This document shows positions 5,691 through 22,101 of a stretch of 64,000 nucleotides of DNA, one piece after another. The stretch spans positions 2,367,391 to 2,431,390 of the forward strand of contig OX638326.1 in the NCBI GenBank assembly GCA_951812775.1, in the 5' to 3' direction. Position 1 is the first letter of the stretch. Each line of letters opens with the position of its first letter. The notes under the pieces were generated by a model. It was not told the origin of the DNA, made no database searches, and saw only the letters and a program-made list of their open reading frames with translations. This DNA is from an uncultured Alphaproteobacteria bacterium (lineage in GTDB: Bacteria > Pseudomonadota > Alphaproteobacteria > MPNO01 > UBA2964). Both the position numbers and the translations under genes were made by a program.

Positions 5691-5716
5691 CATATTGTTT
5701 ACTACCCAACAATATG
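5691..5716. promoter_or_regulatory. Palindromic operator candidate upstream of the Mo-hydroxylase operon
   Basis: A perfect inverted repeat with 9-base arms (CATATTGTT and AACAATATG) and an 8-base spacer lies in the divergent gap between the ChrA gene and the small subunit gene, about 70 bases before the chosen start. The size suits a dimeric repressor or activator. Which regulator binds is unknown. The same 9-8-9 geometry, with a different sequence, appears at 40589-40614. Confidence 0.5.
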
Positions 5717-5785
5717 ATATCGAAGGATTTCTTGATCCCAGGCGCCCTAAAGCTTGGATTTTCGCCCCAAACAAGGTGGGAGCTG

Positions 5786-6271
5786 ATGAAAAACTTTGTC
5801 TCAATGACGCTCAATGGACGTGCCCGTGACGATGCGATCCCGGGCAACATGCTCCTGATTGATTTTCTTAGAGAGATCGTTGGCTATACAGGCACCAAAA
5901 TTGGCTGTGACGGTGGTGAATGTGGTTGCTGCACTGTCCTCATTGATGGCAAGCCGAGACACGCCTGCCTTACCCTCGCCGCCGTCTGTGATGGGGCTGA
6001 AGTTGAAACCATCGAATCCCTTGAAACCGAGGGCAGACTGTCAGCAATCCAACGCGGATTTCATGAAAAACTGGGCGCTCAATGCGGCTTTTGTACCCCC
6101 GGTATGGTAATGGCCGCCGAGGGCCTCCTGCGCGAAAACCCCGATCCAAATGAAGATGAAATAAGAAAAGGCATGGCAGCCAATATTTGCCGCTGCACTG
6201 GCTATGTAAAAATTATTGAGGCGGTTCAGGCAGCGGCGCAGGAAATCGCTTCGAAGGAGGATGCAGCATGA
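5786..6271 (+). CDS. Molybdenum hydroxylase small subunit, two [2Fe-2S] clusters
   Basis: About 161 residues, the electron-transfer subunit of a xanthine-oxidase-family enzyme. The plant-type ferredoxin motif CDGGECGCC binds the first [2Fe-2S] cluster, and the all-helical C-terminal domain has CGFCTPG and CRCTGY for the second. The open frame extends 24 residues further upstream, but the ATG at 5786 is preceded by AGGTGGGAG at good spacing and matches the usual family N-terminus. It overlaps the large subunit by ATGA. By the content of its operon it corresponds to HcrC of 4-hydroxybenzoyl-CoA reductase. Confidence 0.9.
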   Translation: MKNFVSMTLNGRARDDAIPGNMLLIDFLREIVGYTGTKIGCDGGECGCCTVLIDGKPRHACLTLAAVCDGAEVETIESLETEGRLSAIQRGFHEKLGAQCGFCTPGMVMAAEGLLRENPDPNEDEIRKGMAANICRCTGYVKIIEAVQAAAQEIASKEDAA

Positions 6272-8622
6272 ATGAGAACATGCCCATCGATCCAGAAAAG
6301 GTAGAACCGGTTAAGTCTATTGGCGTTCCCATGCCGCTGGTCGATGGACCGGAAAAAGTATCGGGAAAAGCAAATTACACAGCCGATTTTGTTGAAAAAG
6401 ATGCTCTGGTTGGTCGAATTCTACGCTCTCCTGTTTCCCATGCCGAGATATTGAGCATCGAGATCGCTGCTGCTGAAGCCTTGCCGGGTGTTGTTGCTGT
6501 CGTTACCGGCGAAGATTTTGTCGGACAGTTTGGTGTCCTGCCCATCGCCCGGACGGAATGGCCGATAGCGCGCGACCGGGTACGTTATCGTGGCGAACCA
6601 ATCGCAGCGGTAGCCGCAGTTGAGGTCGAAACCGCTCAAAAGGCCCTCGATCTCATAGAATTCGAATATGAAGAACTGCCCGCCTATTTCACCGCGGAAG
6701 ATGCGATGGCTGAGGGGGTAACGCCGTTACACGAAAAACGCCCGAATAACGTTGAACGTCATGTTGAGTATGATCTCGGCGAAGTCGATAAGGGTTTCGA
6801 AGACGCAGCGCTAATTCGCGAAGGCACTTATGATTGTGCTGAAGTCTGTCAGGTCCAGACGGAACCACATGCCGCCATCGCGGCATATGACGGCGAACGT
6901 GACCAGATCACCGTTCATGCCAGCACTCAGGTTCCCTATTACGTTCACCTGATGCTTGAGCAGACACTGGGTATGCCGCGCTCAAAAATTCGCGTCATCA
7001 AACCGCATATCGGTGGCGGGTTCGGGTCGCGCACGGAATGTTTGCACGTCGAGCTTGTCGCAGGTGCGCTGGCCCGAAAATGCAAAGGTACCGTGCGAAT
7101 TACCTTGAGCCGTGAGGAAACTTTCATCACCCATCGCGGCAGGCCGGAGCAAAAAACAACGCTCAAGATGGGGATGAGCAAAGACGGCCGTATTACCGCT
7201 GTCGACACGACGACGACACAACGCGGTGGTGCCTATGCGGGTTATGGCACCGTAACGATCCTTTATTCAGGTTCCATGGTCTTTGCGCTCTATGATATCC
7301 GGAACGCCCGCTATAACGGGTACCGGGTTCTGACCAATACGCCACCTTGCGGCGCCTTTCGCGGCCACGGCACGGTCAATGTGCGCTTTGCCTTTGAAAG
7401 CCTGATGGATGATATGGCGACCGAACTTGGGCTCGACCCCTTCGAAGTCCGCCGCAAGAATTTGCTCGAGGCACCAACCTTCACCGCCAATGATTTGATG
7501 GTGAACAGCTATGGGTTGCCGGAGTGTCTGGACATCGTCGAGAAAGCCAGCGACTGGAAAAAACGCAAAGGGAAAATGGAACCATTCCGGGGTCTTGGTA
7601 TCGCGTGCTCGCATTATGTTAGTGGCGCGTCCAAGCCGGTAAACTGGACTGGTGAACCGCACGCCACCGTCAATATCAAGCTCGATTTTGATGGCAGCCT
7701 GACGATCCTCACTGGAGCACCCGAAATTGGTCAGGGATCAAGCACTATCCTGACACAATGCGTTGCTGAAGTTCTGGGCCTGGACGTCACCCGAATTCGT
7801 ATTGTGACCTCTGACAGCCTCGTGACGCCAAAGGATAACGGCGCTTATTCGTCACGTGTCACCTATATGGTTGGCAATGCCGCCATTGATGCAGCAACAA
7901 ACCTCAAAACAATTTTGACAGAAGCGGCCGCCCGCAAGATGGATGTGCAGCCCGAAGACGTTGAATGTCTCGGTGAAGTCTATCGCGCCGGATCCCAGGA
8001 TCAGGGCATGACCTTCGAGGAAGTTGTATACGCGGCACTTGAAGGAACCGGCACGATTACCGCACGCGGGAATTTCGATACTATCCCGGAGAGTTGGGGT
8101 GGCGATAAATATCGCGGTGCCGCAATTGGCGGATCGATGGCATTTTCATACGCCGCGCAGGTTGTCGAGATCGCGATCGACCCGGATACGGCAGACATCC
8201 ATGTCGAAAAAGTCTGGGTCGCCCATGACTGCGGCAAGGCGCTGAACCCGCTCTCCGTCGAAGGCCAGATTGAAGGGTCTGTTTGGATGGGGATGGGTCA
8301 AGCCATGACCGAGGAAACCCGCTACCATAATGGCCTTGGGATCACGGGCAATATGCTGGATTACCGGGTACCGACGATTATCGAGAGCCCACCGATTGAA
8401 ACGCATATTGTGGAGTCAAATGACCCACATGGTCCGTTTGGAGCCAAGGAAGCGGGCGAGGCATCGCTTGCTGGTTTCTTACCGGCCCTGACCAATGCTA
8501 TCGCCGATGCGCTCGATATCCGTGTCTCCGAATTACCCACTACGCCGGACCGGTTGATGGAAATTATGGAAGACAAGAAACGCGAATCCCGCAAATCGGA
8601 AAAAGAAAAGGCAGGTGCATAA
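6268..8622 (+). CDS. Molybdenum hydroxylase large (Mo-cofactor) subunit
   Basis: 784 residues, full length for the catalytic subunit that binds molybdopterin. Visible landmarks include GGGFGSRTE (cofactor binding), CGAFRGHGT, and GAKEAGEAS near the C-terminus, where the Glu of the GxxExGE-type motif is the catalytic base. The gene overlaps both neighbours (ATGA before, one base shared with the FAD subunit after), so the three subunits are translationally coupled. The companion FAD subunit has an iron-sulfur insert, so the closest functional match is 4-hydroxybenzoyl-CoA reductase alpha (HcrA). Related heteroaromatic dehydrogenases cannot be excluded. Confidence 0.9.
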   Translation: MNENMPIDPEKVEPVKSIGVPMPLVDGPEKVSGKANYTADFVEKDALVGRILRSPVSHAEILSIEIAAAEALPGVVAVVTGEDFVGQFGVLPIARTEWPIARDRVRYRGEPIAAVAAVEVETAQKALDLIEFEYEELPAYFTAEDAMAEGVTPLHEKRPNNVERHVEYDLGEVDKGFEDAALIREGTYDCAEVCQVQTEPHAAIAAYDGERDQITVHASTQVPYYVHLMLEQTLGMPRSKIRVIKPHIGGGFGSRTECLHVELVAGALARKCKGTVRITLSREETFITHRGRPEQKTTLKMGMSKDGRITAVDTTTTQRGGAYAGYGTVTILYSGSMVFALYDIRNARYNGYRVLTNTPPCGAFRGHGTVNVRFAFESLMDDMATELGLDPFEVRRKNLLEAPTFTANDLMVNSYGLPECLDIVEKASDWKKRKGKMEPFRGLGIACSHYVSGASKPVNWTGEPHATVNIKLDFDGSLTILTGAPEIGQGSSTILTQCVAEVLGLDVTRIRIVTSDSLVTPKDNGAYSSRVTYMVGNAAIDAATNLKTILTEAAARKMDVQPEDVECLGEVYRAGSQDQGMTFEEVVYAALEGTGTITARGNFDTIPESWGGDKYRGAAIGGSMAFSYAAQVVEIAIDPDTADIHVEKVWVAHDCGKALNPLSVEGQIEGSVWMGMGQAMTEETRYHNGLGITGNMLDYRVPTIIESPPIETHIVESNDPHGPFGAKEAGEASLAGFLPALTNAIADALDIRVSELPTTPDRLMEIMEDKKRESRKSEKEKAGA

Positions 8623-14098: not shown

Positions 14099-14976
14099 TC
14101 AAGCGGCAGCAAGATAGTCGACGAACTGTTTGACGAGACCATCTCGCGGCGCGTTAGGCGGCCACACCGCGAACACGCCGATCTGTTCTGGCTCCCAATC
14201 TGGCAAAACGTAGCTCAGCGCGCCGCTATTCACATCCGCCTTTGTCAGAAACTCGGGCAGGACTGACACTCCGGCGCCAGCGAGCGTTAATCGATGGAGT
14301 GCATGGGCATCATTTACGCTTATTTGGGAGTGGCGTTTGGAAATCGTCGCTCTTTTTTGCCACTTCGTAAGGTCTCTTTTTTGCCCCAGACCTGCCCCAG
14401 CTCCAGCCAGTCCCAATCTTCAAGATCACGAGGGGAAGTCGGTTTTGACCGCTTGGCACAGTATGTCTGTCCGGCGACGAGCCGACGGCGGACGTCAAAA
14501 AGTTTTCTGGCGATCAGCGTACTATCCTTTAGCCAGCCCATTCGGATCGCGACATCGAAACCTTCACCGATTAAGTCGCGCCGAACATCCGTAAAATTTA
14601 TCGACAGCTGCACGAGGGGATTGGCCAGAGAAAATTCTGCGAACCGGTCCACGAGCATAGATTGCCCCAGAGCCGCCGGTGCCGTTATTCGCAACACACC
14701 GGACAACTGACTTTTTTGATCAGCAATTGCCTGGAGACCGGCCTCTGCCGCCTCAATCATCGAACGCACCGCGGCAAGTAAGCGTTCTCCATCTGCGGTC
14801 AGCGATAATTTGCGGGTCGAATGATAAAGAAGGGCGGTACCGAGCTGCTGTTCAAGTTGCGTTACGTGGTGACTGACAACAGAAGGCGACAGGCGCAGGA
14901 CCCGCGCCGCTTCACGAAACGATCCGTGATCAACGGTTTTTGCGAAGATGGCTATCTGCTTTAGGTGGTCCAACAT
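14099..14976 (-). pseudogene. LysR-family regulator broken by a one-base frameshift
   Basis: Residues 1-60 form a normal LysR helix-turn-helix (SFREAARVLRLSPSVVSHHV). The first frame runs to about 14320 and ends ...RRFPNATPK. The second frame, to 14099, resumes with ISVNDAHALHRLTLAGAGVSVLPEF, exactly the expected continuation. Adding one base in CCCAAAT at 14322-14327 (minus-strand reading) joins them into a protein of about 292 residues, normal for the family. So either the gene is freshly inactivated or the base was missed in sequencing. It is divergent from the SnoaL-like gene and precedes the flavin monooxygenase gene. Confidence 0.85.
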
Positions 14977-16618: not shown

Positions 16619-17791
16619 TTAAAACGTATAAGGCAGAGTCACACCAAAAGCGACATCGTCACCAGTACCGCCAAGGCCGAAACTTACGGACGGTTCAATG
16701 TAAAGGCCTTTCGCCAACCACGATGTTAACCCGAACTGCATGCTATAGGTGTTTTGCTGGCGCAATGTTGCATTGTCGAAACTGGTCGCACCGCTAAATA
16801 CACCTGACACGGACGTGCTAAGAGTAAGCGTGTCGTTGAGTGCTAGGGCATAACCCATGGAAATATCTAAGCTGTCTTTTGCTTCTAAGCGTGTGACATC
16901 GGTAAAATCTCGACTGAATGTGTGACGATAGTTGGCATTAGCGAATAAAACTGCTGGGTCAATACTCTTGACCAAGGCTACCCCTCCACTGATCGCAAAT
17001 GAGCTGTCCCCAGTCGGGATACGCCCATCTAAAGTCAAGATAACGTCAGGGTAGCCCGCACCATCGTGCAATATTGTCCGACGGATTCCGAGATTGATAT
17101 CGCCGATTTCTACGCGGCCACCTTCGGAAAGCTTGGTGCTACCAAGATACACATCGTTATCTTGACTGCGGAGCGTGGTGCTGGTGATGATCTCTGTTTC
17201 ATTGCCCACTCCAACTCGTCCTAGCAATAATGTCGTGAGCGTTTCCTCTTCAACAGCCGCAAGCCCAACCCCATTACCAATTTCTACGAGGTCCTGACTA
17301 TCCTGCTTGGAATAAAACTGGCCAAACTCGATCGTCACTTCGCTTGGTGCCAGCAACACCTTTTGGCTCCGCAGGAAGACATCATCGGCGTCACGCTCTT
17401 TGGGGGCAACGCCTACCGTTCTGTCAGCAGGAACTGAGCTGCTGGGTTGTGAGGTTGGTGCGTTTTGGGCGAGGCGGGTGCCAGTCGCCTTGACTCGCTG
17501 GTGATTACCCTGGCTGAGAACCAGCTTGTCGGAACGGGATGGCGGAAGAGTGGATTCTATTATTGTCCAGTCACCGTTGAGCCACGCGAGCAGGGCTTTG
17601 CGGTTGAAGCGCCAACTCGCTCCAATGCGTCGCGCAGGAACTTTGTTCTGAGCGGCGTAACGTTCTAATTCCACTGTGCTGACACGTAAAAGCTGTGCTG
17701 CTTCGTTAAGCGTCAGGACAGAGTGTTTGGTTAACGGCGGAGTCGTTGCCATGGCCGGACCAGCTGCCGCGCTGAGCACCCACAACATCAA
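16619..17791 (-). CDS. Exported protein fusing a MerR/excisionase-like HTH to an outer-membrane beta-barrel
   Basis: 390 residues in this frame. After the signal segment (LSAAAGPAMA) comes a domain that looks like an excisionase or MerR-type winged helix (LTLNEAAQLLRVSTVE, ending in RRIGASWRFNRKALLAWL). A proline- and serine-rich linker follows, then about 240 residues of alternating hydrophobic strands ending in phenylalanine (VTLPYTF), typical of outer-membrane barrels. The natural start appears to be the ATG at 17844, which has AAGGTAG upstream and reads MKK, but it is one base out of frame. A sixth A in the run at 17837-17841 would restore a normal signal peptide. A DNA-binding-like domain outside the cytoplasm is odd. 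Confidence 0.7.
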   Translation of the reverse strand: MMLWVLSAAAGPAMATTPPLTKHSVLTLNEAAQLLRVSTVELERYAAQNKVPARRIGASWRFNRKALLAWLNGDWTIIESTLPPSRSDKLVLSQGNHQRVKATGTRLAQNAPTSQPSSSVPADRTVGVAPKERDADDVFLRSQKVLLAPSEVTIEFGQFYSKQDSQDLVEIGNGVGLAAVEEETLTTLLLGRVGVGNETEIITSTTLRSQDNDVYLGSTKLSEGGRVEIGDINLGIRRTILHDGAGYPDVILTLDGRIPTGDSSFAISGGVALVKSIDPAVLFANANYRHTFSRDFTDVTRLEAKDSLDISMGYALALNDTLTLSTSVSGVFSGATSFDNATLRQQNTYSMQFGLTSWLAKGLYIEPSVSFGLGGTGDDVAFGVTLPYTF

Positions 17792-17857
17792 AGCGCACGT
17801 GCTAATGCACTGCCAGAAAGTATTGGATAAAGCGACTTTTTCATTGGACTACCTTAA

Positions 17858-18628
17858 AAGTTCAGGCAACCGGACAAACGGGTTACCTACCGCGAGCATC
17901 TCACGGACTGTCATGATTTCGGGCTGTGGCAGCCCTTTTCGGGAGAGGGTCAGCAAACCTTTCGGAGATATCCTCGCGGACTTGTTGCTTGCCATTGGTT
18001 CGATGACAAAGATGATTCCCTTGCCGTCTTTTTGCAGCAGAGCTCATTGGGGATTCTCGCGGGGCTGATCATGGTCGCGTGCGGTCTCCTCTACTGGTAT
18101 TTGAGGCGATGCTTTTCACCTCTTTCGGCATCAATTGGCTCGTTAAAGAAATTGGCGGATGGTGATATGTCCGTTGAGGTAGAAGTTCGCTCCAATGATG
18201 AAATCGGCTCTCTTGGGAATGCTATCAACCAGTTTAAAGAAAAGATGCAGGATGCGGAGCGTCTAAGGCAGAAACAAGCTGAGGCCGATGAACAGGCACT
18301 CAAACTGGAAAAGCAGCGTGAAGATGAAAAACGGCAGGCTGAGCAGGAAGCTATTAGTCAGCGAGAACGGGAAGCTGCCGAACGGCAACAACGTACGGAG
18401 TTGATTGAAGCGCTGATTGCTGCATTTGATGAGAAGGTAACCACGGTTCTCGATACTGTTGGGTCAGCTGCAAACAAAATGCAGTCATCTGCAGAATCCA
18501 TGTCTAACACCGCCGATCATACCAGCCAGCGTGCCACTGCGGTTGCAGGGGCTTCTGACGAGGCCACGGGTAATGTTCAGGTCGTCGCCGCTATGGCTGA
18601 CTTCTGCTCAGCCTCGCTTTGCCCCTGA
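17858..18628 (+). pseudogene. Methyl-accepting chemotaxis protein fragment
   Basis: An open frame without a credible start. It encodes the end of a periplasmic Cache-like domain (HWFDDKDDSLAVF), a transmembrane helix (ILAGLIMVACGLLYWYL), a HAMP domain (SLKKLADGDMSVEVEV...NDEIGSLGNAI), a charged coiled coil and the first part of the signalling domain (TAVAGASDEATGNVQVVAA). At about 18600 homology stops abruptly where the restriction enzyme fragment begins on the other strand. Both the sensor N-terminus and most of the signalling tip are missing, so it cannot work as a chemoreceptor. A deletion or element insertion is the likely cause. Confidence 0.8.
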
Positions 18629-18915
18629 ATCGAGCGTAGCAAACTCTCATCCTCCGTTACCCAAAACGTGTTCCGGCGTTCTTCCCAACCCTTTGCTTCC
18701 AGGCCAGACTTAAATGCTGCATTCATATCGACAGGGCTATAGAGCGTTCTGCCCTTTCGCGTCTTTTCTGTCGACACTTTTGTCCGGCAGGCTTCAGCAT
18801 CGACTTGAGCATCGACTTGAGCAATGACGCCCAATAGTTCCGCCCAGAGCTCGGAGTGGTGAACAAGCAGATATTCCTCACCATTTAAATGGGAATATCT
18901 GGCTTTCACCCGCAT
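18577..18915 (-). pseudogene. 3'-truncated BstYI-like type II restriction endonuclease
   Basis: The 112-residue frame matches, from memory, the N-terminal half of BstYI (recognition RGATCY): YSHLNGEEYL, DAEACRTKVSTEKT, LYSPVDMNAAFK, LEAKGWEERRN. The part that should carry the catalytic acidic residues (the EVQFGK-type region) is absent, because the sequence joins a chemoreceptor fragment at about 18595. A 12-base in-frame tandem duplication gives QVDAQVDAEA. It begins in the TAATG overlap with the methyltransferase, a normal restriction-modification arrangement. It should have no nuclease activity. Confidence 0.8.
18797..18820. repeat. 12-bp perfect tandem duplication
   Basis: GCATCGACTTGA occurs twice in a row (18797-18808 and 18809-18820), inside the restriction enzyme remnant. 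Being a multiple of three, it adds four residues without changing frame. It resembles the frame-breaking tandem duplications at 37218, 38362 and 38909. Confidence 0.85.
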
Positions 18916-19835
18916 TAATGACCACCGTTCGGCAGAACCGGGTTATAAACCGGTTTTCCCATGGGGCGGGTGCGCAGTGCCCCGCTACGCCACGCGGCAA
19001 CGCGCTGCTGCGCCAGTTCGACATATTCAGGAACAATATCGCAACCGTAAGCGTCGCGCCCATGCATCAATGCAGCGATAACCGCAGAACCCACTCCCAT
19101 ATATGGGTCAAGAACCACGTCGTTTTCATCGGTCATCGAGAGAACCAGTCTCTCAACCAATTCAACCGGAAATTGGCAGGGGTGGATTGTCTTTTCTGGA
19201 TGGTTATTCTTGACGTTCGGGAACTCCCAGACATCGGACGGGTTCTTACCCTTCGGGTTGCCGGACAGTTTGCCGGTATTCGGCCCTTTGAAATGTTTTT
19301 TGCCTGGATATTTTGATGGAACGCGGATCGGGTCCAAGTGCCACGTGTAATCGTCCGCACGTGTCCACCAATTGATTGTCTCATATCGGCCTGACAGCCG
19401 CCGTGTACAGTGCAAGCCGTGCCCGAAATGCCAGATAATCCGATTCCGCATTTTCAGGCCGCATCTTTGGAAGATTGGGTATGTGAGGATATCCAACGGC
19501 ATTATCTCGCCGTTCTGCACGAAGTTTCCGACCTGCCAGCAAATGGACCCCTTTGGATGCAGAACGCGCACACATTCCTCGATAACGTGCTTTTGCGCCT
19601 CCAAATAGCTGTCCAAGGACGATTTGGCTTCGTAGTCTTTCCCCAAATTGTAAGGAGGTGACGTAACAATCAGTTTGCACTGCCCATCCGGGATCGAGCG
19701 CAAAAATTTCAAATTATCAAGACAGGCCAGCACAGGAACGCGATTATCGTAGGAGCGAACGACCGGCCTTGGGAACAGTGAACGAGCAAGGGCAGCGGGA
19801 TCATTGATGACAGGGGGAATTACGGCGTTATTCAT
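18915..19835 (-). CDS. DNA methyltransferase of a BstYI/BglII-type system (probable N4-cytosine)
   Basis: 306 residues, apparently intact. The catalytic motif TSPPYNLGKDYE (motif IV) comes before the SAM-binding motif LDPYMGVGSAVIAA (motif I), the beta-class order. SPPY is usual in N4-cytosine enzymes and a minority of N6-adenine ones. It overlaps the transposase frame upstream by ATGA and the endonuclease remnant downstream by TAATG, so all three were probably one transcript. With the endonuclease broken it may act as an orphan methyltransferase; RGATCY or GATC-containing specificity is inferred from the partner. Confidence 0.9.
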   Translation of the reverse strand: MNNAVIPPVINDPAALARSLFPRPVVRSYDNRVPVLACLDNLKFLRSIPDGQCKLIVTSPPYNLGKDYEAKSSLDSYLEAQKHVIEECVRVLHPKGSICWQVGNFVQNGEIMPLDILTYPIFQRCGLKMRNRIIWHFGHGLHCTRRLSGRYETINWWTRADDYTWHLDPIRVPSKYPGKKHFKGPNTGKLSGNPKGKNPSDVWEFPNVKNNHPEKTIHPCQFPVELVERLVLSMTDENDVVLDPYMGVGSAVIAALMHGRDAYGCDIVPEYVELAQQRVAAWRSGALRTRPMGKPVYNPVLPNGGH

Positions 19836-20599
19836 CGTGCTTCCCCCACAATCAGATCGCGATACATGAGCCGTTTGCCGATCATCCCCCCAACGATATC
19901 GCGCATTTGATCGATGGTATGCCGGTCGCGGATATTGTGACGGCCTGCGAACTCATTAACATATCGATCAAGGTGCTTTGGGCTGATATTATGGAACGTC
20001 CCTTTGTGCGCTCGCTTAAGCATCGCCCAGAAACTTTCGATTCCATTCGTATGGGCTTGACCGCGCACATATTCGCCAACTGAGTGATTGACAGCTTCAT
20101 GATCACGTCGCACACTTTTATAGCCCGCAGCATCGTCCGTGTAGACCTTTGCGGTCAAATCGCTCACACTTTCAGTGAACCTTCGTAACGTCGCGCCATC
20201 GGTGTTCTTTACTGATCGCGCCGTCACGCGGTTGGTTGTGCGGTCCTTTGCGCCGATAACGGCGGTCTTGCCAACCGGTCCGCGCCCGCTCAGATGTTTG
20301 CGTTTCGCCTTTGGCATATTCTTGCGCTTACCGCCCATGTAGGTTTCGTCGATCTCGACGGGACCGACGAATAATCCTTGTTCGCTAGCAAACGCTTCGC
20401 GGAGCCGATGCGCCATAAACCAAGCCGATTTCTGGGTGATTTTTAAATCGCGATGAAGTTTCATGCTCGAAACACCTTGCAGGCTCGTCGCATTCAAATA
20501 AATCGCGAATGCCCACTTACGGAGAGGTATCTTGGATTGTTCCATGACCGAACCGTGACGTACTGAAAAGAACTTACGGCAATCACGGCATCTATAAGG

Positions 20600-20637
20600 G
20601 AGAGGCTTGCGATTTGCCTTCGGTGCCGTGTTGCGGC
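20600..20637. repeat. 38-bp direct repeat, copy 1, flanking the IS5 insertion
   Basis: This 38-base segment of the IS1595 transposase gene is repeated exactly at 21887-21924. Here it is separated from the left IS5 end by 15 bases of unassigned sequence (20638-20652). IS5 elements normally duplicate only 2-4 bases, so the length is anomalous. Confidence 0.9.
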
Positions 20638-20652
20638 GTGATTTGACCGGGT

Positions 20653-21886
20653 GGGCGCGTCTGAGTGTCGGTTTTTTCGAGCCGTTTTGCGTCGATTTGA
20701 TCGGTTTAGCCGGTCGAACCGGCCGTTCCGGCGTCATGTGGGCGCACTTCGCCCCTGGAGCCAGAGGAAACGGCGCATGTTATACGCCAGATTGGTCATG
20801 CCGATCTTGGCCTCGGCCCGGGCGATGCCGATGGTCCGAACCGAGAGCGCCATCAAGCCTTTCTGATGGGCGAAGACATGCTCGACGGCGGAGCGTACCG
20901 CCGAGCGCGCCGCGTTGGCCTTGGCCAGGGTCGCCGGCATCGGCTTGCCGCGCGGCTTGCGGAAGTGGATCTGGGAGCGCTTGCCTTGGCGCGCCAGCAT
21001 CTTCTCGTTACGCTTGGACCGATAGGCGGTATCCGCCCAGACCGGGCTCGCCGTGTTCTCCGGATCGATCAGACCGGCGAGCTGGCGGCCGTCATTGGCG
21101 GCGGCATCGGTGACGCGCCACTTGCGGATCAACCCGTGCCGCCGGTCCGTGGAGATGTGGTTCTTGTAGCCAAACGCCGGCACCATGATCTCCGGCCCCT
21201 TGGGGTGCCCATCCTCCAGACGCTTCACTCGGCCACGCTTCATGGTCCAGCGCGCATCCCGGTCTTTCTGGGCCAGCTTGGCCGGCTTGTCCTTCCACTC
21301 CTCTGGCACCTTGCCGGCCTTCAACGCCACCTTCTCCGGAACGCTGTTGCGCTGCCTGGGCGCCGCGACGATCGTGGCATCGACGATCTGGCCCGACATC
21401 GCCAGGTAGCCATGGCCGCGCAGGTGTTCGTCGAAGCGATCGAACAACGTCTCGATCGCCTTGGCCTGCACCAGCAACTCACGGAACAGCCAGATCGTCT
21501 TGGCGTCCGGCACCCGGGCGTGAAGCCCCAGGCCCAGGAACCGCATGAAAGACAGCCGGTCGCGGATCTGGAACTCGGTTTGATCATCCGAGAGATTGTA
21601 TAGTGCCTGCAACACCAGGATCTTGAACATCAGAACGGGGTCATAGGGAGGCCGGCCACCCTGGCGCCGGTCCGAGCGACGTAGCGCCCGGATCAAGGGC
21701 TGGCGAAACAACTCGAAATCGACCAACTCACCAAGCCGAAGCAACGGATCACCCGCCGCCGACAGTGCCGCGTAACGCTCATCAAGATCGAAAAAACCGG
21801 GCTGATCCGACATTCCATCCTCCATCAAGCCGATGAGAGAAGTGAAGCAGATCATGGCCAAAATGACGAGGTGTTTAGAGGCGCCC
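20653..21886 (-). mobile_element. IS5-family insertion sequence inside the IS1595 transposase gene
   Basis: About 1.23 kb. Imperfect terminal inverted repeats are GGGCGCGTCTGAG at the left and, reading inwards from the right, GGGCGCCTCTAAA. The right end (21886) is directly followed by the second copy of a 38-base direct repeat. One transposase gene fills the element. Its sequence is markedly richer in G and C than the flanks, consistent with recent arrival. Confidence 0.75.
20734..21813 (-). CDS. IS5-family transposase
   Basis: About 359 residues. The start MSDQPGFFDLDERY at 21813 is preceded by GGAGGATGGA, and the frame further upstream is not native. It has the N-terminal DUF772-like segment (GRPPYDPVLMFKILVLQ) and a DDE catalytic core: VDATIVAAP for the first Asp, WADTAYRSKRNE for the second and RSAVEHVFAHQKG for the Glu. 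It ends within 80 bases of the left inverted repeat. It seems intact, so the element may still be mobile. Confidence 0.9.
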   Translation of the reverse strand: MSDQPGFFDLDERYAALSAAGDPLLRLGELVDFELFRQPLIRALRRSDRRQGGRPPYDPVLMFKILVLQALYNLSDDQTEFQIRDRLSFMRFLGLGLHARVPDAKTIWLFRELLVQAKAIETLFDRFDEHLRGHGYLAMSGQIVDATIVAAPRQRNSVPEKVALKAGKVPEEWKDKPAKLAQKDRDARWTMKRGRVKRLEDGHPKGPEIMVPAFGYKNHISTDRRHGLIRKWRVTDAAANDGRQLAGLIDPENTASPVWADTAYRSKRNEKMLARQGKRSQIHFRKPRGKPMPATLAKANAARSAVRSAVEHVFAHQKGLMALSVRTIGIARAEAKIGMTNLAYNMRRFLWLQGRSAPT

Positions 21887-21924
21887 GAGAGGCTTGCGAT
21901 TTGCCTTCGGTGCCGTGTTGCGGC
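21887..21924. repeat. 38-bp direct repeat, copy 2
   Basis: Identical to 20600-20637 and abutting the right terminus of the IS5-type element. It encodes RNTAPKANRKPL of the interrupted transposase, so the interrupted protein has this peptide in both halves. Confidence 0.9.
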
Positions 21925-22101
21925 TTCCGCATTTTGGGCAAAGCCGGTCTTCCGGCGTAGGCCATCGCACATCCTCAAACCAATCTTCCGCTGATGTTTC
22001 ACAGGGGAACATCTCTGCCAACTCAATCAAGCTGATACCTTCGCGGTGATGTTTACCAGGTGCGTTGTTTGCCATATCATTCTCCTATGTCCCATACATT
22101 A

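Follow-up and report, generated by a model that had tools for sequence, protein, structure and literature searches.

A 390-codon open reading frame (ORF) on the minus strand of the window, the 64,000-nucleotide stretch of DNA analysed here, is best read as encoding a pore in the outer membrane that belongs to a FapD/FapF-type export module. In this reading (estimated probability: about 0.7), an excisionase-type winged helix-turn-helix (wHTH) domain replaces the coiled coil of FapF, and the window holds a relic copy of the module. The features on which this reading is built are listed in Table 1. Residues 25-72 of the translated product match the HTH_17 family (Pfam; Bitscore: 45.8, gathering cut-off: 27; E: 7.1e-12), while the C-terminal part, which ends in ...LPYTF, matches the NCBIfam FapF model (NF058560; E: 4.8e-19) and the solved FapF chains (E: 1.5e-14). 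An AlphaFold2 model, built on an alignment of 41 sequences from the window and the fetched loci, contains a wHTH (helices 27-34, 38-46 and 63-70; strands 52-55 and 58-62; pLDDT about 80), a disordered linker, a plug helix (residues 134-141) ahead of the first strand, and barrel strands spanning residues 151-388 (pLDDT mostly >90). The HTH, Ser/Pro-containing linker and outer-membrane barrel of the original prediction are thus all borne out, and neither of the outcomes named there as a refutation, a missing HTH fold in residues 25-75 or a missing C-terminal barrel, was obtained. Its suggestion that the HTH may plug the barrel is not supported, as a helix of its own forms the plug, in the model as in FapF. 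When the HTH was modelled without the rest of the protein the result was poor (pLDDT 68), with weak structural matches (best Z 3.0; BldC, RacA and MerR types), and a search of the PDB with the HTH sequence alone returned zero matches.

Table 1. Features of the HTH-barrel locus in the window, and leader-bearing ORFs at other FapF-like loci
Feature	Location	Strand	Details
HTH-barrel ORF (FapF-like pore with N-terminal HTH)	16619..17791	-	390 codons from TTG 17791; ATG 17788 is an alternative start
Winged HTH domain	17567..17725	-	Residues 23-75
Disordered Ser/Pro linker	17396..17566	-	Residues 76-132
Plug helix and FapF-like barrel	16622..17395	-	Residues 133-390
Ancestral start and first half of signal peptide	17788..17844	-	Reads MKKSLYPILSGSALARAL; stop TGA 17790-17788; out of frame with HTH-barrel
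3' remnant of FapD-like C39 peptidase gene	17849..18040	-	Last ~63 codons and stop; N-terminal and catalytic part missing
HAMP-containing chemoreceptor-like fragment	18032..18628	+	Abuts truncated C39 gene; marks rearrangement
Sec-signal ORF with double-glycine-type leader LSTAELDAIVAGG	L125 1704-2696	+	Beside FapD/FapF-like genes
Sec-signal ORF with double-glycine-type leader LSPEDLAALNGG	L128 5781-6218	+	Beside FapD/FapF-like genes
Sec-signal ORF with leader LKDAEMADLRG	L139 6280-7101	+	Between C39 and barrel; by position FapE

The best structural match of the modelled barrel is FapF (PDB 5o65; Z: 26.6; rmsd: 2.1; 235 aligned residues), the alignment beginning at the plug helix (model residue 135; FapF residue 89), and Foldseek also matched the barrel to the FapF fold (E: 4e-17). 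Autotransporters and porins score far lower, and the COG4313 channel Pput2725 (PDB 4rl8; Z: 23.7; rmsd: 2.5 over 235 residues; 12% identity) somewhat lower; the latter shares the barrel fold but is an uptake channel for which no C39 partner is reported (PMC6173800). With FapF, the fibril amyloid transporter of Pseudomonas (PDB 5o65, 5o67 and 5o68; NF058560), the window type has in common the barrel fold, plug helix, disordered linker, a preceding N-terminal domain and a C39 peptidase partner gene (PMC5557850). The N-terminal domain of FapF, which is required for secretion and controls the plug (PMC5557850, PMC6173795), is however a trimeric coiled coil, where the window pore has the wHTH. Furthermore, FapF carries two PTG motifs at the β5-β6 loop, whereas one PTG only (IPTGDSS) is present in the window ORF and its two relatives described below. 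Given these two differences and a score far below the FapF equivalog cut-off (68.4 against 700 bits; NF058560), the window ORF is not a FapF equivalog; instead it belongs to the broader superfamily of FapF-like pores, as part of a FapD/FapF-type module, and has an unusual domain at its N-terminus.

Among 84,980 species genomes (GTDB), a pattern scan yielded one relative, on a contig of an alphaproteobacterial metagenome-assembled genome (L002), which is 59% identical over its full length. Its HTH scores 32.5 bits for HTH_17 (Pfam gathering cut-off: 27) and its pore 48.8 bits against NF058560 (cut-off: 700). The encoded protein has a normal signal peptide, and its start lies 4 nt downstream of an intact gene for a Sec-exported C39 peptidase (Pfam E: 7e-20; FapD-like E: 9e-39). 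A third case is found in G963, a genome from a different class within the phylum. Here a C39 gene followed by a signal peptide and HTH closes contig 258 (L088), and a linker and barrel stand at the start of contig 169 (L086; E: 1e-85); because the contig ends show no overlap, we can only infer that the two are parts of one gene. The L088 peptidase gene (6448-7242, plus strand) is read with one in-frame stop (6745-6747), and G963 also harbors a second FapF-like barrel with a C39 gene (L087, 1-2696, plus strand), the N-terminal domain of which is cut off where the contig begins. A search for FapF-like barrels in about 1960 genomes of the phylum gave, with one GTDB match, 62 distinct proteins. 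The HTH is joined to the barrel without a break only in those of the window and L002, while many others show, by eye, heptad-like helices at its position. Viral contigs held no relative, the plasmid collection gave a weak barrel match only, and the same genus and order held no full-length match. Literature outside subscription journals gave no report combining FapF with a helix-turn-helix. The HTH group is small, with three members of which one is split over two contigs. As in both relatives a signal peptide precedes this HTH and a FapD-like C39 gene lies immediately upstream, the architecture is real and old, and it is rare. The adjoining Sec-exported C39 gene is present in L002 and L088, while the window retains its 3' remnant only. 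The original prediction had mentioned similar architectures next to C39 peptidases at export loci of the functional-amyloid-like kind, and the FapF-like barrel and the peptidases beside its relatives support this link.

Candidate cargo proteins are encoded at the loci of both relatives. Four small exported paralogues lie in tandem beside the C39 and exported-HTH genes of L088 (1182-4920, minus strand), three of them with a AMTSAEMDSVQGK-like leader, and L002 encodes a small exported protein downstream on the opposite strand (5713-6141). The three L088 proteins and that of L002 share, after the Sec signal, a motif like MTSAEMDSVQG, which we take to resemble the double-glycine leader cut by C39 peptidases and which is the sole convincing part common to the candidates of the two loci. 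When the flanks were extended at 20 FapF-like loci, of the coiled-coil type or other, every one contained a C39 gene, and several also carry Sec-signal ORFs with a leader of the double-glycine type. The L139 ORF, standing in the fapE position, bears on the question of the FapD substrate. With a relaxed motif, leaders were counted in 10 of 462 signal-bearing ORFs of the C39/barrel loci, against none of 176 in the controls (0/84 in the window; 0/92 in C39-less loci) and a mean of 1.9 and maximum of 8 over 300 shuffles, a count that is a lead and not a test, the motif having been relaxed after the first examples were seen. Judged by these sequence features, the leader-bearing exported proteins beside several FapF-like loci are likely cargo. 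The idea itself is not new, because the Neisseria nap island already combines a C39 peptidase (NapP), a FapF-related channel (NapF) and small GG-motif peptides in the same three-part set (PMC11798529); unlike for the window-type pore, no HTH is mentioned for NapF in the passages of this description covered here.

Comparison of the window ORF with L002 shows the strongest conservation in the HTH (74% amino acid identity, against 63% for the barrel and 27% for the linker), while identity at codon position 3 is 29-36% across the three segments. Since that of the HTH is only 36%, the domain was under strong constraint at the protein level. This conservation bears on the possibility, which we hold to be real but doubtful, that the HTH serves chiefly for oligomerisation or spacing and binds no ligand itself. 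It does stand where FapF has its trimerisation-driving coiled coil (PMC5557850), and is followed by the same linker and plug arrangement as in FapF, but its conservation above the level of the barrel goes beyond the needs of a mere spacer.

The copy in the window appears to have decayed. The original prediction saw no C39 peptidase nearby, which was mistaken, as the 3' end of such a gene lies directly upstream and shares 66% identity with the last part of the L002 peptidase. No Peptidase_C39 domain was found elsewhere in the 4.15-Mb single-contig source genome (the same search was positive in 8 of 14 control genomes), and the best hit there to the L002 cargo candidate (E: 0.15) did not amount to a relative. 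Beyond the chemoreceptor-like fragment, at whose junction with the C39 remnant no clear IS-end repeats were seen, lie BglII-like endonuclease gene fragments, a DNA methylase gene and two transposase genes. The methylase (N6_N4_Mtase) adjoins a 112-amino acid BglII-endonuclease-like fragment (18577-19835, minus strand), together a probable remnant of a restriction-modification pair. The transposase genes, of the IS1595 and IS5/DDE_Tnp_1 types, abut one another (19832-22026, minus strand), and an exact 38-nt direct repeat (20600-20637 and 21887-21924) falls within this stretch. The GC3 of the window ORF (0.53, against 0.61-0.73 in six neighbours) is consistent with a foreign origin.

The exported N-terminus that had been predicted stands in part: a signal peptide-like sequence is present, but it is split over two frames. 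ATG 17844, the start implied by the original prediction, is preceded by a Shine-Dalgarno-like AAGG, and its identification as the ancestral start is supported by the 4-nt gap between the C39 stop and this ATG, the same as in L002. The frame of the HTH and barrel is open only from TTG 17791 or ATG 17788 onwards and starts with MLWVLSAAAGPAMA, which has a hydrophobic core but lacks a positive n-region; LMLWVLSAAAGPAMA, in this frame, is the rest of a normal-looking signal peptide. In both relatives the signal peptide and HTH share one frame. The break could be a mutation or a sequencing error. A programmed frameshift is not favoured, because the ATG and HTH frames differ by -1 at GCGCTTTGATG, which is presumably not a canonical slippery heptamer. 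A LysR-type regulator gene in the window (14099-14976, minus strand) is frame-split as well, into overlapping parts carrying HTH_1 with the N-part of LysR_substrate and the LysR_substrate C-part. With the C39 gene truncated by a rearrangement and the signal peptide divided between two frames, export by the window copy probably no longer works and the copy is probably a relic, with the caveats that the ORF is open over 390 codons, so that expression is possible, and that the frame break may be a sequencing error. That the gene is still functional, being translated from TTG 17791 or ATG 17788 with a short signal peptide and served by a peptidase from elsewhere or by none, seems to us unlikely. 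The open codons, the overlap of TGA 17790-17788 with ATG 17788 (TGATG), which might allow reinitiation, and a hydrophobic core and AMA cleavage-like site still in frame would permit it; the lack of a Peptidase_C39 domain in the genome, the lost upstream part of the operon, the out-of-frame n-region and the failure to find a minus-strand promoter-like site upstream of the ORF speak against it.

The window HTH belongs to the same sequence family as the excisionase/BldC/MerR-type HTH domains (HTH_17, TIGR01764) and shares their predicted wHTH topology, but differs from them in being exported, fused to an outer-membrane barrel and endowed with an acidic recognition helix. The net charge of this helix is -2, -2 and -1 in the three members, related sequences that make up a small sample, while 28 other HTH_17 domains average +1.4. 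It is improbable that the HTH still binds DNA, as a pore-tethered domain holding extracellular or incoming DNA, for example in the biofilm matrix or in DNA uptake. The family membership, the weak structural matches, mostly to DNA-binding proteins, and the arginines conserved in the wing region (VPxRR...WRF) would fit such a role, while the acidic helix weakens the original suggestion that incoming DNA is bound and the C39 peptidase partner gene points to a peptide cargo. The charge of the helix, together with the place of the HTH where FapF has a coiled coil, favours a protein-binding domain in the periplasm. More tentatively, and at somewhat less than even odds, the excisionase-type HTH may have been co-opted outside the cytoplasm as a peptide receptor which recognises the double-glycine-type leader of cargo exported by Sec, or the C39 peptidase, and thereby opens the plug. 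That an HTH gene and a barrel gene were joined by chance or by faulty assembly, as might be suspected from the rearranged surroundings with their transposases and gene fragments, has a negligible probability and is refuted by the same domain order in L002 (59% identical over its full length) and G963.

We suggest that in the intact relatives the Sec system would carry small proteins across the inner membrane, that a second leader, of the double-glycine type, would then be removed from them by the C39 peptidase in the periplasm, and that the trimmed product would exit via the plugged barrel. The HTH would be placed on the periplasmic side, tethered by the flexible linker, and would most likely be a protein-binding domain for recruitment or gating, with the leader, the cargo or the peptidase as its partner. 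Cargo recruitment and gating in FapF-type pores and the substrates of FapD-like peptidases have been described as open questions (PMC5557850, PMC6173800), for which the natural HTH variant, with its compact and highly conserved periplasmic domain, and its leader-bearing neighbours offer small testable pieces, namely the HTH, the leader peptide and the peptidase. The HTH pore would be an example of an HTH acting outside the cytoplasm and, should the proposed receptor role be true, of a DNA-binding fold that serves as a secretion gate.
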